A DNA stretch of 20,180 nucleotides from positions 1 through 20,180 of the IMG/VR virus record IMGVR_UViG_3300025086_000335; one strand, written 5' to 3'. Under the pieces are notes generated by a model that was given only the letters and a program-made list of their open reading frames with translations, was not told the origin of the DNA and did no database searches. A program made the translations under genes and the position numbers. Each line of letters opens with the position of its first letter. The stretch's first letter is position 1. This stretch comes from a virus. Of the stretch, positions 37 to 9,305 are shown one piece after another.

Positions 37-1341
37 ATGGGTAAACCTAGAGATTTAGCAAACGTAGTTGCTACTGGAAATATACTTGCTGACGGTGCAG
101 TAGCTCCTGCTGAATTGACAGGTGTTACGTCTACAGCAGCAGAAATAAACATACTAGATGGAGTAACTGCAACTGCAGCAGAGTTAAACTTACTTGATGG
201 TGTGACTGCTACCACTGCAGAGCTTAACCATGTTGACGGTGTTACATCTAATGTGCAGACACAGATGGACACTAAAGCTCCTGTAGCAAGCCCAACGTTT
301 ACTGGTACTGCTACTGCTCCTACTGTCAATGCCTCTACAGCCTTACAGATAGGTGGTGTAGCAGTAACAGCTACGGCTGCAGAACTAAACAAGATGGACG
401 GTGTAACTGTCAGTGCATCTGACATAAACACTGTAACAGCAAAAGCTCCTACTGCATCTCCTTCATTTACAGGCAATGCTACAATTACTGTTACTGATAA
501 CTCTGATGCCCTTACACTTATAAGCACAGATGCAGATGCAAATGTTGGCCCAGTTTTAAACCTATATAGAAATAGTGCTAGTCCTGCCGATAATGACGTA
601 TTAGGTCGTGTTCTTTTTAAAGGCGAAGATGATGCAGGGAATGAGGCTACTTTTGCTAGAATAGAAGCTATAGCAACAGATGTTAGTAATGGCAGTGAAG
701 ATGGCAGAATAGATTTTATTACTGCAAAAGATGATGCGTTTAATGTCGCTCTTAGTGTGGTAGGAGATAAAATTGGCATTGGAACAACTGTGCCTTCAAT
801 GACCTTAGATGTAGATGGATCAAGTGGTGGTAATGATATAGTAAGATTTAGTGGGCCTAATTCTGGTGGTTTAACATTCCGTAACGCCACTTCCAATGAG
901 TTTATTTTGCATACCGCAACATCAGATGCATTGATATTTGGAACAGCAGGTAACAATGAACGTATGCGTATAGACGCAAATGGTGATGCAAGTTTTACAG
1001 AAGAATTAATAGCTAAATCATATAACGAAACATATGTAAGTTTATCTGCAGGTTCTACTGTTGATATTAACAATGAAACAGGGAATGTATTTGCTTTAAC
1101 GACTAATCAAAATACAACACTTACATTTAGTAATCCACCTGCTTCAGGTACATCTTACGGTTTTACACTTAAACTTACAGCAGGTGGATCACACACTATA
1201 ACATATCCAAACTCTGTAGACTTTGCAGGTGGTACAGCCCCAGATGCTCCTGCATCAGGTGAGACTGACGTGCTTGTATTTTTTACAGTTGACGGTGGTA
1301 CTAATTGGTATGGTGCTATAGCAATAGATGCTGCAGGGTAA
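37..1341 (+). CDS. Tail fibre protein with AELN-x-x-DGV repeats
   Basis: Probable receptor-contacting tail fibre on the outside of the virion. The N-terminal third carries four 13-residue repeats of the form T-A-x-A-E-L-N-x-x-D-G-V (residues 31-43, 44-56, 57-69 and 111-123) and two copies of a K-A-P-x-A-S-P-x-F-T-G motif (80-90 and 136-146). Both are typical of trimeric beta-structured fibre shafts in marine phages. The C-terminal ~100 residues are Gly/Thr/Asn-rich and beta-like. I see no T7 gp17-type particle-binding domain and no endosialidase-type chaperone, so attachment to the tail must differ from T7. ATG at 37 follows an AGAGGAT ribosome binding site. The next gene, 21 bp downstream, also looks like an adsorption protein. 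The fibre role is clear from repeat composition; the receptor is unknown. Confidence 0.85.
   Translation: MGKPRDLANVVATGNILADGAVAPAELTGVTSTAAEINILDGVTATAAELNLLDGVTATTAELNHVDGVTSNVQTQMDTKAPVASPTFTGTATAPTVNASTALQIGGVAVTATAAELNKMDGVTVSASDINTVTAKAPTASPSFTGNATITVTDNSDALTLISTDADANVGPVLNLYRNSASPADNDVLGRVLFKGEDDAGNEATFARIEAIATDVSNGSEDGRIDFITAKDDAFNVALSVVGDKIGIGTTVPSMTLDVDGSSGGNDIVRFSGPNSGGLTFRNATSNEFILHTATSDALIFGTAGNNERMRIDANGDASFTEELIAKSYNETYVSLSAGSTVDINNETGNVFALTTNQNTTLTFSNPPASGTSYGFTLKLTAGGSHTITYPNSVDFAGGTAPDAPASGETDVLVFFTVDGGTNWYGAIAIDAAG
127..243 (+). repeat. Three tandem 39-bp units encoding 13-aa fibre repeats
   Basis: Three head-to-tail in-frame units encode 13-residue repeats ending in D-G-V. 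A fourth diverged unit lies at 367-405. Repetition is clear in the protein and only partial in the DNA, which suggests old duplications. Such repeats allow fibre length to change by recombination. Confidence 0.8.
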
Positions 1342-2891: not shown

Positions 2892-3548
2892 ATGATCGAA
2901 CTAGATAAAAAAGAAAAAGTACATCCAAACAGAGTTGAAGTTTTACCACAATATTTTTATAGATTTTTGTGTGATAAATCTACTACAGAAAAATCTTTAG
3001 ACGTGTTAAAAAACATGGACTATCATCCAAACATAAAAAATGAAACTTCTTTTGATCATAGACTTGAAAGAAATGAAGAGTTAAAAGATTTATTTATTTT
3101 TTTTGAACACTGTTTAAATGAAGTTAAAGAAGATTTATATATGGAGTGTGACGAGTTAAAAATTACTCAAGCATGGGCTAACAAATCCACAGAAAATCAA
3201 AACCACCATTGGCACAATCACCCAAATTCTTTTTTAAGTGCAGTGTTTTATTTAACTGACTCACCCATGCCCACTACTTTTGCTATAGGAGATATTTGGA
3301 GTCCTCAAAAAAACTTTAGTGGTAACTTAGATTTAAATGTAAGATCGCAAGTTGCCCCTATATACCATAAAGAAGACACCGTAGCAGGTAATTTAGTTTT
3401 ATTTCCTTCAGTCGTAGACCACTGTGTTGATTCTTTACACGAAGGTATGGAAGATAGATACACAATTTCTTTTAACACTTTTCCAGAAGGTACTATTGGA
3501 AGCTATGGATCACTGGCAGGTTTGACTATTAAAGTGGATAATAGTTAA
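2892..3548 (+). CDS. 2OG-Fe(II) oxygenase, phage type (TIGR02466-like)
   Basis: Predicted cytosolic Fe(II)- and 2-oxoglutarate-dependent dioxygenase with a double-stranded beta-helix fold. The metal-site block is H-H-W-H-N-H-P-N-S (105-113), followed by the strand L-S-A-V-F-Y-L (115-121). The distal block L-F-P-S-x-x-x-H (170-177) supplies the last His, and R189-Y-T-I-S-F-N195 supplies the 2OG-binding Arg and the closing strand. These are the hallmarks of the putative 2OG-Fe(II) oxygenases common in cyanophages and other marine phages. The length of 218 residues is normal for the group. ATG at 2892 has a strong SD, AAAGGAG. The substrate is unknown; the place beside fibre genes makes a virion protein, host surface molecule or metabolite possible. 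It is followed after 1 bp by a second, different oxygenase. The DNA is more A+T-rich than the replication arm, hinting at acquisition. Confidence 0.8.
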   Translation: MIELDKKEKVHPNRVEVLPQYFYRFLCDKSTTEKSLDVLKNMDYHPNIKNETSFDHRLERNEELKDLFIFFEHCLNEVKEDLYMECDELKITQAWANKSTENQNHHWHNHPNSFLSAVFYLTDSPMPTTFAIGDIWSPQKNFSGNLDLNVRSQVAPIYHKEDTVAGNLVLFPSVVDHCVDSLHEGMEDRYTISFNTFPEGTIGSYGSLAGLTIKVDNS

Positions 3549-3549
3549 T

Positions 3550-4104
3550 ATGCTAAAAAATTATATAAAAAAATATCAGCTATTAAGTAAACAACAGAGC
3601 AAAGATATTATAGTTGAACATAAAAATGCACCTTGGCAAAAACATACTTGGAATAAAAACGTAGATAATTCTAATCAGTCCAAAGATAAAGACCCTGAAG
3701 TTTTATATATGGATCAGAAGTGGGCTTTTGTTATATACAAAAGTTTAGAAAAAAGTATACATGATTATTTTACAACTGTTTCTGATGGTAGTATGTACAC
3801 AAAAACTTTTTCTACACCTCGTTTTAATAAGTATGATGTAGAACAAAAAATGGATTATCATGTAGATCATATTCATAGTTTATTTGATGGTCAACACAGA
3901 GGTATTCCAATATTAAGCATAATTACTTTGTTAAATGAAGATTACAAAGGTGGTGAATTTTGCTTTAAACTGGATGGTAAAGAAGTAGAGTACAAATTAA
4001 AAACAGGAGAGTGTTTAATATGGCCTTCCTTGTTTATGTACCCACACTATGTAAAGCCTGTTACAGAGGGTACACGTCAAAGTTTTGTAGTATGGGCTTT
4101 TTAA
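3550..4104 (+). CDS. Prolyl 4-hydroxylase-like (PKHD-type) 2OG-Fe(II) oxygenase
   Basis: Predicted Fe(II)/2OG dioxygenase of the P4H/PiuC-like branch. The iron triad is visible as H104-V-D106 and H166 (in Y-P-H-Y-V-K-P), and the 2OG-binding Arg is R176 in G-T-R-Q-S-F-V-V-W. The central strand L-L-N-E-D-Y-K-G-G-E-F (127-137) is the typical Y-x-G-G-E-L turn of this family. All catalytic residues are present, so the enzyme should be active. It starts one base after the stop of the preceding oxygenase and has no clear SD of its own, so it is probably translated by coupling. The two enzymes differ in sequence and are not recent duplicates. In cyanophages such enzymes are often next to tail genes; the target is not known here. 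Confidence 0.8.
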   Translation: MLKNYIKKYQLLSKQQSKDIIVEHKNAPWQKHTWNKNVDNSNQSKDKDPEVLYMDQKWAFVIYKSLEKSIHDYFTTVSDGSMYTKTFSTPRFNKYDVEQKMDYHVDHIHSLFDGQHRGIPILSIITLLNEDYKGGEFCFKLDGKEVEYKLKTGECLIWPSLFMYPHYVKPVTEGTRQSFVVWAF

Positions 4105-4118
4105 AAAATATTTTCAAT

Positions 4119-4159
4119 AAAAACAGTATTAGGCTAATAAGGTAAAAACATTAGGGCAG
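4119..4159 (+). repeat. 41-bp direct repeat, upstream copy (start codon lost)
   Basis: Identical to 4545-4585 except at one base (40/41). That one difference, G4154 against T4580, turns the ATG of the downstream copy into AGG. It therefore looks like a duplicated 5' leader (RBS AAGGT plus start) of the 1101-aa virion protein gene. Reading on in the same frame gives only nine more codons before TAG. Confidence 0.9.
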
Positions 4160-4311
4160 AACTTACATCTTTTACGCAATAGCCTAACATCTTGTATTCA
4201 AAGACTTGAGTACCTATAGTATAGAACAGGCTGTAAAGTTTGTAGTACAAGCAACAGTCATAACTATGCAACACAGGGGTACATATACCCCTACAACCCA
4301 ATAGGTAACAA

Positions 4312-4341
4312 ATGACAAGTATTGTAGTATTTTTGTATATT
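4312..4341 (+). promoter_or_regulatory. Possible sigma70-like promoter before the 1101-aa gene
   Basis: ATGACA (4312-4317, 5/6 to the -35) and TATATT (4336-4341, 5/6 to the -10) are 18 bp apart. It would give a leader of about 230 nt before 4579. The caveat is that the same bases would be the start of a possible small membrane-protein gene, and T-rich membrane-coding DNA often mimics promoters. Only one of the two readings need be true. Confidence 0.3.
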
Positions 4342-4527
4342 TTAATTTTGGTTCTAAATTCTCTTTGCACTTCCACAAGGATAAGAAAGAGAGTTGGCAA
4401 GTTTTATCACGCAAGTTTGAAGTGTTTTGGTATAACACAGAAGACTCCACTGTTAACGTTGAGTCCCTGGGAGAGGGTAATGCCTAAACGAACAAGACTT
4501 TTATACCTCATTAAATCATTTACTTAG
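4312..4527 (+). CDS. Possible small single-pass membrane protein (holin-like?)
   Basis: A 71-residue open frame from ATG with a ribosome binding site (AATAGGT, 5 nt before ATG) very like that of the gene at 8670. Residues 3-18 are almost wholly hydrophobic (Ile/Val/Phe/Leu), followed by a Thr/Arg/Lys-rich stretch with R-I-R-K-R near residues 23-27. This fits an inner-membrane anchor with positive-inside topology. The C-terminal half is basic and unremarkable. No holin or spanin is visible elsewhere in the window, so a lysis role is conceivable but unproved. Its codon use includes AGG, CTG and TTG, somewhat unlike its neighbours. It lies in the segment bracketed by the 41-bp repeats. It could equally be a chance frame. 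Confidence 0.3.
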   Translation: MTSIVVFLYILILVLNSLCTSTRIRKRVGKFYHASLKCFGITQKTPLLTLSPWERVMPKRTRLLYLIKSFT

Positions 4528-4544
4528 ATGTAAATAAAAAATCA

Positions 4545-4585
4545 AAAAACAGTATTAGGCTAATAAGGTAAAAACATTATGGCAG
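4545..4585 (+). repeat. 41-bp direct repeat, downstream copy (functional leader)
   Basis: The second copy, 426 bp downstream of the first. It carries the RBS (AAGGT, 4566-4570) and the ATG (4579) of the 1101-aa protein gene. A phage-polymerase promoter-like role of the shared TTAGGCTAATAAGG core is possible, but I see no further copies in the window. Confidence 0.9.
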
Positions 4586-7500
4586 TAATAAAAGAAGTAA
4601 ACAATCCATCAGCAGGGACAGTACTTAATGCAGATAATAGTCCTGGTCTAGCTGCAGAAATAGCAGCAGGTAATCCTGGTCTTACAGGTGTTACTGTAAA
4701 TGCTCAAGGAAATTACGAGTACGATGGTGTTGAGCTTACATCTGCAGGGGGTACTACTACTGTTGTAGACCTAAATTTAGCAACTGCTGAAGATAAAGCT
4801 GCTATCAAAGAACTTGCTGAGTTAACATTTTTGGCTCAAACTACTGGGGTAAATTCAAACACACTCAATGCTGCCTATGAAAAACTAGGTCTTGATCCAA
4901 ATGATACTACAGTTTCTTCTACTTCTAATAAAATTTTAGAGGCTTCAGGATATACACCTGGAGTTACTAACGGATTCTTTGATGGTGTAGGTGGTTACAC
5001 TGGTACTGACCAAGGTATTAATATTCTTATTGACAGGTATAAGGATATGCCCACTGATGAAGACTTGATAGCTGCAGGACTAGATCCTTCAGAATACACT
5101 GCTGTCCACAGTAATGCAGCAGAAGCTTTTTACGTAGAAGAAAAATTACTGGAAATGGGTCTTTCATCTGCAAATACCAACGCTGTTATGGGATCTACTG
5201 CAGGGTTTCTTGGAGGAAATTTAAGTTCTTTGGGTATGCAAGGAGCTACAAACATCCAAGATGTTCGTGATGAAAGTGATAGACTTTCAGGAACAAACAA
5301 CAGCGAAAAGTTTTTAGACATCTATGAGTGGGATTTACTAAAGAAAAAGAAACCATTGAAACCAAAAGTACCTGGGTCAAGTGGTTTAACTGGAAACGTA
5401 AGTGGGATTAACCCCCCAGGTGGAGGTCAAATAACTGGAGGAAATGCAGGAAGTTTTGGTAATCCTGCTTATGTTAGTACTCCTCTTATTGGTAACGCTA
5501 CACCTATCTACGACACAGGACTAACTGGCTTATCAGAAGTAACTCTTCCTAACTATTCTCAGGGTCTTCAAAACCAAGAAACAGAGTTTACAAACAGAGC
5601 AGCAACACAACAAAGTTACTATCAACCACAGACACAAACAGAGAAAGAAGCTTTAGCTGCTAGTGATCCAAACTATACTGCTCCTGCCTTTGAGAATGTT
5701 TTATACAGAAATAGATTTGGTATGACTCAGTACATCCAACACATTGATGGTGTGCCTAGTCAGCCTATTCCTCCTGGTTACTTTAGAGTAACAGGCTTTG
5801 GAACTGAGGACCAAGGGGCTGCTGCTACTGGAGGAAACCAGGGTGGAATGATACAAGGATTTAATGATGGAGCTATCGTAAACCCTGCAATAAACTTTCA
5901 ACCTGGTGGTGCTGTTGTTGAACAGGATGGTGTATACAGGATCAAGTATCCTGATGGAACATATTCTCAGGGCTATGACACAGCCAATAATGCAGCCAAC
6001 GCACTTAATATGGGTATGTCTAAGCTTGGTCTACCAGACTATAACACCTACCTTACTAATCAAGGTATTGATAGAAACCTTCCTGGTTATGATGAGACAC
6101 AGTACAGAAATATGTATCAGGCTTATGTCCAAGATCCTGCTACTTTACAAAATATTAAAGATCAAGCTGCTGCAAAAGAAAAAGAAGATCTACCTCCCCA
6201 AACTGGGGGAATAAATCAAGGTCAACCTACAGAACAGACAACAGTTACTAGTGACGATCTAGCCCAGGCTCAAAGGGATCTCGTAGCCCAGGCTACTGTA
6301 GCTCCTGGTGGTTCTGTCGCTGCTGCACCTACTTCTTATATTAATCCTAATGCGTATGGTACGGTTACTGAGTCAACTGCAGGTCAAGCTATTGGTGTAG
6401 CTCCTATGGTGAGGAAAGATCAAGTAGCTCAGATTGGTACAGCTACAACTGCTGATGTTCCACAAAAGATTGGTGCAGGGCAAGTAGATGCTCAACAAGC
6501 CTACAGTGATATTCAGAATGCTACTGCAGGTATGGATGCTGCACAACTTAGTGCGCCTACAAAAACTATTGATGCTCAACAACAAGTTGGAACTTCTGTT
6601 TCAGGGCTTACTGAAGCAACAGGAACGTCCACTGATGTTACCAAACCAGACGCAAGAACTGTAGAAAAAATTGATGGAACTAGTGAACTTGTTTCTGGTA
6701 CTGGTGTAGATCAAACAAAAGTAGGACAAGCTTTCGGAACTGGTGAGGTACAAGCTGCATCAGTTCAGAATGAGTTAGCAAATCTTATGGCTCAGTTTGA
6801 TGATGGTCAAACACCTGCTTGGGCTGCAGGATCTATGAGGGCTGCATCACAGATGCTTGCTGCCAGAGGTCTTGGAGCTTCTAGTTTAGCAGGTCAGGCT
6901 GTGATCCAGGCTGCTATGGAAGCTGCTCTACCTATCGCTCAGATTGATGCAAGCAACAAACAGCAAGTAGCTTTAGTTAAAGCAGAACAAAGAGCTAAGT
7001 TTTTACAGCTAGACTTTGATCAAGAATTTCAAGCAAAGGTTGTCAATGCTTCTAAGATTTCTGAGATTGCTAACATAAACTTTAGTTCTGAACAGCAGAT
7101 TGCTCTTGAAAATTCTAAGGCTGCTAACACTATGGAGTTGCAGAACTTAACGAATGAGCAAGCATTGATTATGGCAGAGGCTGCTGCGCTATCTCAGTTA
7201 GATACACAGAACCTAAACAATAGACAACAGGCTGCAGTTCAGAATGCTCAGAACTTTCTGCAAGTAGATATGTCAAATCTTTCAAACTCGCAGCAGACAG
7301 CCCTATTTAAACAGCAATCTTTAATTAGTTCTATACTTTCTGATCAGGCTGCAGCTAATGCTGCTCAACAATTTAACGCTACCTCAGAGAACCAGACTAA
7401 TCAGTTCTTTGCTAACCTTGCAGCCTCAGTAAATCAGTTCAATGCTGCTCAGATTAATGCTATGAAACAGTTTAATGCTGACGAAGTAAATAGTTTACTG

Positions 7501-7884
7501 GAGTTTAACGCAGGGATTCAAAATCAGAGAGAGATGTTTAACGCTCAGAACTATCTAGTAGTTGCCCAGGCTAATGCTCAGTGGAGACAGAACCTTGCTA
7601 CTATTAATACTGCTGCAGCTAACGAGGTAAACAGGGAATATGCACAGACAGTCAACGCACTTACTCTGAAAACTCTGGATGAGATATGGCAGAGAGAACG
7701 TGACCTGATGGACTACTCATTTACATCTAGTGAAAACTCTGCTGATCGTGCATTGAGTATTTTATTAGGTGATAAAAAATTAGACGCTTTAAGATTGGAG
7801 CTTGACTCGCAAGAGGATCAGGCTCTTGGAGGTCTTATGGCTAAGATATTCTTTTCTTCTGATGCCACATCTATTTTTTCATAA
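4579..7884 (+). CDS. Large Gln/Ala/Asn-rich probable internal virion protein
   Basis: A 1101-residue protein, probably a structural or ejected core protein. Residues 1-260 are acidic and mixed. Residues ~260-700 are Gly/Pro/Thr/Gln-rich and probably flexible. From ~730 on it is strongly helical, Ala/Gln/Asn-rich and without membrane segments. Residues 856-921 are three 22-residue units starting N-L-x-N, and ~925-990 carry a spaced F-N-A motif five times. Helical Gln/Ala-rich repeats are frequent in phage internal core and tail-needle proteins. No enzyme motif was seen. ATG at 4579 with RBS AAGGT sits in the duplicated 41-bp leader. The transglycosylase gene follows after 12 bp, as in T7-like internal-protein clusters. 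The structural role comes from composition and neighbours; the exact T7 counterpart is uncertain. Confidence 0.65.
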   Translation: MAVIKEVNNPSAGTVLNADNSPGLAAEIAAGNPGLTGVTVNAQGNYEYDGVELTSAGGTTTVVDLNLATAEDKAAIKELAELTFLAQTTGVNSNTLNAAYEKLGLDPNDTTVSSTSNKILEASGYTPGVTNGFFDGVGGYTGTDQGINILIDRYKDMPTDEDLIAAGLDPSEYTAVHSNAAEAFYVEEKLLEMGLSSANTNAVMGSTAGFLGGNLSSLGMQGATNIQDVRDESDRLSGTNNSEKFLDIYEWDLLKKKKPLKPKVPGSSGLTGNVSGINPPGGGQITGGNAGSFGNPAYVSTPLIGNATPIYDTGLTGLSEVTLPNYSQGLQNQETEFTNRAATQQSYYQPQTQTEKEALAASDPNYTAPAFENVLYRNRFGMTQYIQHIDGVPSQPIPPGYFRVTGFGTEDQGAAATGGNQGGMIQGFNDGAIVNPAINFQPGGAVVEQDGVYRIKYPDGTYSQGYDTANNAANALNMGMSKLGLPDYNTYLTNQGIDRNLPGYDETQYRNMYQAYVQDPATLQNIKDQAAAKEKEDLPPQTGGINQGQPTEQTTVTSDDLAQAQRDLVAQATVAPGGSVAAAPTSYINPNAYGTVTESTAGQAIGVAPMVRKDQVAQIGTATTADVPQKIGAGQVDAQQAYSDIQNATAGMDAAQLSAPTKTIDAQQQVGTSVSGLTEATGTSTDVTKPDARTVEKIDGTSELVSGTGVDQTKVGQAFGTGEVQAASVQNELANLMAQFDDGQTPAWAAGSMRAASQMLAARGLGASSLAGQAVIQAAMEAALPIAQIDASNKQQVALVKAEQRAKFLQLDFDQEFQAKVVNASKISEIANINFSSEQQIALENSKAANTMELQNLTNEQALIMAEAAALSQLDTQNLNNRQQAAVQNAQNFLQVDMSNLSNSQQTALFKQQSLISSILSDQAAANAAQQFNATSENQTNQFFANLAASVNQFNAAQINAMKQFNADEVNSLLEFNAGIQNQREMFNAQNYLVVAQANAQWRQNLATINTAAANEVNREYAQTVNALTLKTLDEIWQRERDLMDYSFTSSENSADRALSILLGDKKLDALRLELDSQEDQALGGLMAKIFFSSDATSIFS
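7144..7341 (+). repeat. Three tandem 66-bp units encoding 22-aa helical repeats
   Basis: The units 7144-7209, 7210-7275 and 7276-7341 each begin Asn-Leu-(Thr/Asn/Ser)-Asn-x-Gln and run exactly 22 residues (856-877, 878-899, 900-921). A diverged unit precedes them. The 22-residue period fits an amphipathic helix that turns by whole heptad/undecad steps. Confidence 0.75.
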
Positions 7885-8669: not shown

Positions 8670-9305
8670 ATGGCACTACCAACGATGAATCCCCAAGCTG
8701 CAAAAGTATTTAAACAACCAGTCATGGGTGATACCAGACCCCCACCAAAACCTAAACCACAACCAAAGCCTAGCCCTAAGAGCAAGGGCAAGCCAAACCC
8801 AAAGATATTTGAAAGACCTATTCCTGGTCAGTCTCTTACTGCTGAACCAAAGGGTAGGCCATACGAAAGACCACCAGAGATTAACGATCCTGAAGATGCT
8901 TTGCGTTATCACTTAACCAGGCTCAATGATGTAGAATCCCTGGACACTGTGATGCTTCTTTTACAGAAGGGTGTTGACGTAAAGAGTTTGACTGAGGGTA
9001 TTCTGAGGGGTGCTGTGTCTGAGGGTATTCACAGCATTGATGTAAGTTTAACTATTGCTCCTACTGTCCATGAGTTTATTGAGACTGTAGCTGATGAAGT
9101 TGGTGTGTCGTATAAGACAGGCTTTGAGAAGGGTGAGCAGGAAGAGGATGATAAAGAGATGGCTTTAGTTCAGAGTATGCTTGCTAAGTCTAAAGGTAAA
9201 GCACCTGCACCCAAGGCTGCTCCAAGAGAAGAGCCTAAACAACAAATGGAAATGAATCTTGGTGAGCCAGAGGCTGCACCTAAAGGTCTGATGGCGAGGG
9301 TATAA
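8670..9305 (+). CDS. Unknown probable virion protein, Pro/Lys-rich N terminus
   Basis: I recognise no named family. The 211 residues fall in three parts: a Pro/Lys-rich arm (20-70, with K-P-K-P-Q-P-K-P), an ordered middle (75-155) that looks alpha-helical and contains L-T-E-G-I-L-R-G-A-V-S-E-G-I-H-S, and an acidic to Ala/Pro-rich tail ending G-L-M-A-R-V. No membrane segment or enzyme motif was seen. It begins 5 bp after the transglycosylase gene (RBS TAGGT) and is followed after 2 bp by the next gene, so it is co-expressed with the internal virion proteins. The middle region resembles a conserved protein I associate with HMO-2011-like marine phages, from memory only. A chaperone or minor core protein is possible. 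Confidence 0.6.
   Translation: MALPTMNPQAAKVFKQPVMGDTRPPPKPKPQPKPSPKSKGKPNPKIFERPIPGQSLTAEPKGRPYERPPEINDPEDALRYHLTRLNDVESLDTVMLLLQKGVDVKSLTEGILRGAVSEGIHSIDVSLTIAPTVHEFIETVADEVGVSYKTGFEKGEQEEDDKEMALVQSMLAKSKGKAPAPKAAPREEPKQQMEMNLGEPEAAPKGLMARV

Follow-up and report, generated by a model that had tools for sequence, protein, structure and literature searches.

The window considered here, by which we mean the whole stretch of 20,180 nucleotides that was analyzed (positions 1 to 20,180 of the IMG/VR virus record IMGVR_UViG_3300025086_000335), carries two consecutive 2OG-Fe(II) oxygenase genes, a 41-bp leader that occurs twice and, beginning within the second leader copy, a large structural-type gene (Table 1). 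Between the leader copies lie the remains of a heptose kinase gene and of a cupin gene, together with a small open reading frame, ORF71, that is nested in the cupin relic.

Table 1. Features at and around the repeated leader, in window coordinates
Feature	Position	Strand	Remarks
2OG-Fe(II) oxygenase 1 (2OG1, PF13759)	2892..3548	+	right end of the incoming upstream module; Pfam/PHROG matches; 78-95% aa identity in L019-L023 phages
2OG-Fe(II) oxygenase 2 (2OG2, PF13640)	3550..4104	+	last gene of the upstream module; 83-96% identity in L019-L023
Leader copy 1	4119..4159	+	AGG at the start-codon position; extra copy, missing upstream of the kinase in all relatives
12-mer GAACTTACATCT	4159..4170	+	11/12 match, in the same codon phase, to 4732-4743 GAGCTTACATCT (large-gene codons 52-55)
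Extra segment of ~11 nt, AATAGCCTAAC	4178..4188		not in the relatives' kinase (alignment)
Kinase relic (3' end of a PfkB/HldE-type heptose kinase, dead)	about 4188..4299	+	75-81% nt identity to the relatives' kinases; 5' part missing
Cupin relic (118-aa cupin gene)	4301..4528	+	81-86% nt identity to intact cupins
Ribosome-binding-site-like sequence	4302..4311	+	within AATAGGTAAC, before ORF71; ATGGGTAAC in relatives; shares AATAGGTAA with the gene starting at 8670
ORF71 (71 aa)	4312..4527	+	+1 relative to the cupin; hydrophobic N-terminal helix, basic tail; probable overprinted gene
Leader copy 2 (native)	4545..4585	+	probable final codons of the lost epimerase, Shine-Dalgarno sequence and large-gene ATG
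Large structural-type gene (1101 aa)	4579..7884	+	conserved across phages of the HMO-2011 type; forms the fixed border to the right of the exchanged region

The two leader copies agree at 40 of 41 bases with a spacing of 426, and their sole mismatch sets ATG in copy 2 against AGG in copy 1, just as the first-pass annotation had described. Because the runner-up ungapped match in the window reaches only 63%, the repeat is far beyond chance. A 21-mer of the repeat occurs twice in its own record and nowhere else there, and an exact scan of IMG/VR returned a single further contig (L001/L004, 4.4 kb), which has the same two copies 426 nt apart. This twin contig corresponds to the window from 3443 to about 4790 with zero differences, and the two-copy arrangement is therefore not a single-sample assembly error; it is real and recently shared, and window and twin are counted as one lineage. 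It might be supposed that the 41-bp sequence is a regulatory element, a promoter or leader used twice with copy 1 driving the segment behind it, given its intergenic location and Shine-Dalgarno-like AAGG. We consider this highly unlikely. Recurrence at many promoters had been named in advance as the mark of a regulatory motif, whereas the exact 21-mer scans of the record and of IMG/VR gave nothing beyond the two copies seen here and in the twin contig. The identity also extends past the large-gene start into its opening codons, and the 5' part of the leader aligns to the epimerase terminus and spacer/leader of relatives (shuffle P 0-0.03). A degenerate leader pattern had no match in 22 related records, which counts weakly against a regulatory role, as the relatives' leaders are one base shorter and the pattern is unable to match them. 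An Rfam search of 4080-4620 gave no match.

The nature of the intervening DNA emerges from relatives gathered via the large gene. All 18 of the contigs from cassette-bearing relatives that cover the site (18/18) have the order kinase, cupin, epimerase, large gene, and more fully a carbamoyltransferase, GmhB (minus strand), RfaE2, a PfkB kinase of HldE type, a 118-aa cupin and an HldD-like epimerase, followed by the large gene. Of these genes the window retains, at the corresponding place, only the 3' end of the kinase (aligned over 4190-4298) and a damaged cupin. This cupin has lost the start and first 15-16 codons, contains three in-frame stops and lacks the last about 80 nt. All that is left of the epimerase is probably its final few codons, now the 5' portion of the leader. 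Such homology to intact genes at the matching locus is what a cassette relic should display, and since no intact translatable cassette enzyme remains (the kinase 5' part and the epimerase are gone, and the cupin is startless with stops), the segment is a relic and not a functional cassette member. Judged by these alignments, the DNA between the leader copies is a native ADP-heptose cassette in ruins. The proposal that extra DNA was trapped between the copies was thus right about the trapping but not about cargo, the trapped DNA being a kinase-cupin-epimerase remnant that is native here in relatives. A tandem duplication, or the insertion of mobile cargo that brought its own leader copy, would explain the direct repeats flanking the segment, but the segment is native at the locus in relatives, integrase and transposase are absent and nothing similar is inserted elsewhere, making either event extremely improbable.

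Some further features of this segment may be mentioned. The possibility that the kinase relic is a second gene that was kept has been rejected: it lacks a start codon, and by maximum likelihood (ML) none of its codon positions is depleted of substitutions (0.30/0.13/0.23 at the three positions on the window branch). Several ORFs lie antisense to the segment (88 and 78 aa in the window; 140 aa in L009) and were likewise set aside, not being conserved among relatives; the one in L009 (2679-3101, minus strand) runs across the kinase end and the cupin, and its length is not conserved. L009 (38-3983) and 17 other contigs are HMO-2011-type relatives that carry the carbamoyltransferase and ADP-heptose cassette directly before the large gene. 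By inspection, the extra AATAGCCTAAC of the window resembles the inverted complement of the leader sequence TTAGGCTAAT, and could be a fold-back (templated) insertion.

The upstream side of the locus has a different affiliation. The 2OG pair is present in L019-L023, where an unrelated gene follows it, and 2OG1 is absent from 18 searched large-gene-bearing records; a DNA search against annotated phages gave weak oxygenase matches only. In HMO-2011, CRP-9 and CRP-13 the same large gene is preceded by tail-fiber-type and small genes. Because the cassette, the 2OG pair or tail-fiber-type genes differ among phages at this place, the site just before the large gene is, on gene order, a border of module exchange. 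Mosaicism and recombination between such phage groups have already been published (PMC8528129). In the window the 2OG module joins sequence of the cassette phages, with GCAG and TACAT shared at the junction, and the locus is a true scar of recombination where two modules meet, formed around the native cassette relic.

As for the two leader copies, copy 2 is the native leader and copy 1 a newcomer, probably brought by the upstream module. The copies differ at 1/41 bases, against some 10-20% of sites changed in the relic; so small a difference has P=0.002 if the rate is 0.19 per site and P=0.07 if it is 0.10. Since the copies differ less than the relic has decayed, copy 1 probably arrived after the cassette had begun to decay, unless the copies were homogenized. 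Of the original duplication or cargo interpretation, the scar therefore stands, with the amendments that one copy is native, the other is a newcomer and the segment is not cargo. Similarly, the single ATG/AGG difference is confirmed, but a mutation of the start codon is not required, as AGG falls on, or close to, the point where kinase sequence (GGTGCAG) begins; it could be a point change of ATG or part of that junction, with one substitution either way. A decayed gene start directly after copy 1 had also been suggested on the strength of the in-phase 12-mer match. After shuffling, a 12-mer finds an 11/12 match within the first 300 nt of the large gene with P of about 0.001, and among the other 12-mers of the window 0.2% find one, although these are a posteriori figures. 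They are suggestive, and positions 4159-4170 are possibly what is left of a second gene start that became joined to the kinase; alternatively, they may be diverged kinase GCAGGAGATACATTC. Beyond them the sequence is that of the kinase. Relatives without the 426-bp unit were looked for in IMG/VR via 2OG1, 2OG2 and the large gene, and this yielded neither a single-leader ("empty") relative nor a parent with the order 2OG2-leader-large gene.

ORF71 is the part of the relic that appears to have escaped decay. It is open with an ATG in 14 other contigs, in every one nested in an intact cupin, as well as in the 2 contigs of the window lineage, and it is open in all 11 distinct close relatives. In the window it remains uninterrupted although the cupin is dead there. 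Both deletions spare it together with its ribosome site, one ending just before that site and the other just after the ORF71 stop. The first cupin stop (TGG to TAG) converts ATGGGTAAC to ATAGGTAAC, and in doing so yields AATAGGTAA as found before the gene at 8670. The frame is confined to one cupin clade, and most members of the wider family lack it; no standalone homologue was found in viral and genome contigs, and no known family was matched. A structure model gives a helix at residues 2-18 with low confidence (pLDDT 58), too weak for a fold search.

A conserved ORF that is read out of frame with the older gene, with selection visible in the nested frame, is what an overprinted gene should present, and ORF71 presents both, with the caveat that diversity is low in the region. 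Across the close clade, variable cupin synonymous columns number 16/51 inside ORF71 vs 30/39 outside (P=2e-5); the same comparison in seven control groups gave no significant difference in six and a weaker one in the seventh (P=0.02). By cupin codon position, variable sites are distributed 15:4:18 inside ORF71 vs 3:2:31 outside (P=0.0009), and the inside pattern also departs from the 54:34:219 of the seven control groups, which are cupins lacking ORF71 (P=0.0018). Had selection on the cupin merely been relaxed, variation at position 2 should have risen as well, so this does not account for the pattern; in the relatives, variation inside ORF71 falls on its own third positions. A codon permutation test gave P of 0.002-0.06. 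The window branch, along which the cupin died, has 7 amino acid changes in ORF71 vs 13.7 expected (P=0.0005), and an invariant-column test counts 8 vs 13.8 expected (P=0.004), with the ORF71 frame the most depleted of six. It should be noted that invariant-column tests carry an ascertainment bias and that the kinase relic likewise has few third-position changes (2/21). The ML comparison is free of this bias: window branch lengths at ORF71 positions 3/1/2 are 0.247/0.148/0.071 (P=0.002-0.006), and the third position of the kinase relic is not depleted (0.229). The relatives' kinases, too, vary unusually little at third positions near their 3' end (e.g., L082 about 3680-3830), so some of the shortage of synonymous variation in ORF71 may be regional. 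ORF71 was noticed before being tested, and the data hold one cupin-less lineage. With this understood, selection on ORF71 is supported by the statistics of codon-position change.

The same relic and scar could nonetheless surround nothing but decaying junk, with ORF71 open by chance and functionless, and we regard this as a tenable though rather unlikely reading. The homology and decay are certain, a 71-codon frame stays open by chance with P of 0.21-0.58 per lineage in simulation at moderate divergence, and the regional low diversity extends into the kinase end. Against it, the position-specific signals of the relatives (P=0.0009, 0.0018) and the window branch (P about 0.0005-0.006) agree, and the two deletions spared exactly ORF71, its stop and its ribosome site. 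On balance we favor ORF71 as an overprinted gene that probably outlived its host frame and has a predicted product. That it was born by overprinting in a phage cupin, whose older frame was then destroyed and trimmed from either end, and that the younger frame survived behind a changed ribosome site closer to the phage consensus and is now free-standing, we consider slightly likelier than otherwise.

Overall, the locus would combine a cassette relic with a recombination scar, the leftover being retained through ORF71, an account we think reasonably probable. An ADP-heptose cassette (GmhB, RfaE2, kinase, cupin, epimerase) would once have lain directly upstream of the large gene. In the lineage of the window the cupin and kinase decayed and the epimerase was deleted, probably leaving its last bases in the large-gene leader that is now copy 2. 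Afterwards, a module ending in the two 2OG oxygenases would have displaced everything upstream, joined via a second leader copy (copy 1) whose probable donor was a phage with the order oxygenases-leader-large gene. The joining may have been an illegitimate recombination within the kinase, where the two sequences have a few bases in common (TACAT or GCAG), and the added large-gene start behind copy 1 would then have been lost for the most part. We infer both the donor phage and this order of events. The leftover would have been spared from purging by carrying ORF71, a +1-frame small protein with a hydrophobic N-terminus that was still selected after the death of the cupin; we propose that it was kept because ORF71 stayed under selection.

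Comparable heptose genes are known from cyanomyoviruses. S-CAM1 and P-SSM2 carry ADP-heptose genes (GmhB, HldE kinase and RfaE2 domains, HldD), and homologues of the kinase, nucleotidyltransferase, cupin and epimerase of the cassette are found in them, whereas the window keeps only dead kinase and cupin fragments and the relatives' intact cassettes share only about 40-45% identity with their cyanophage counterparts. In phiX174, the lysis gene E is a nested +1 overprinted gene inside gene D. Like E in D, ORF71 is small, shifted by +1, wholly inside an older gene, hydrophobic at its N-terminus and restricted in distribution; in the window, however, the older frame is lost and the nested one remains, and lysis is not claimed for ORF71, its resemblance to nested lysis genes being a lead only. 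Overlapping genes have been reviewed (PMC8227390). Most overprinted genes come to notice at a stage when they are still tied to the host frame, and a locus with a dead, trimmed host gene and a surviving nested frame would offer a direct test of the nested frame's own function and show one route by which a new gene may become independent.

In its large gene and the neighboring morphogenesis module, the window resembles the mosaic marine phages of HMO-2011 type and CRP-9 type, for which inter-group recombination is described (PMC9038755, PMC8528129); unlike the relatives of the window, the isolates HMO-2011, CRP-9 and CRP-13 are without a cassette before the large gene, and heptose genes are not mentioned in these two papers. 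The locus marks a hot border in the abundant HMO-2011-type marine phages at which heptose, oxygenase and tail-fiber modules are interchanged. Two other places in the window may be noted. While window and twin contig (L001) are identical upstream, their identity drops to 80-90% from about 5400, inside the large gene (window 4793-5440), and this abrupt divergence is a sign of recombination within the gene. Additionally, the first 150 aa of the tail fiber (window 37-486) are 97% identical to the fiber of L094, a relative without the cassette, and the remainder differs; by this comparison, the tail-fiber gene holds another recombination border.
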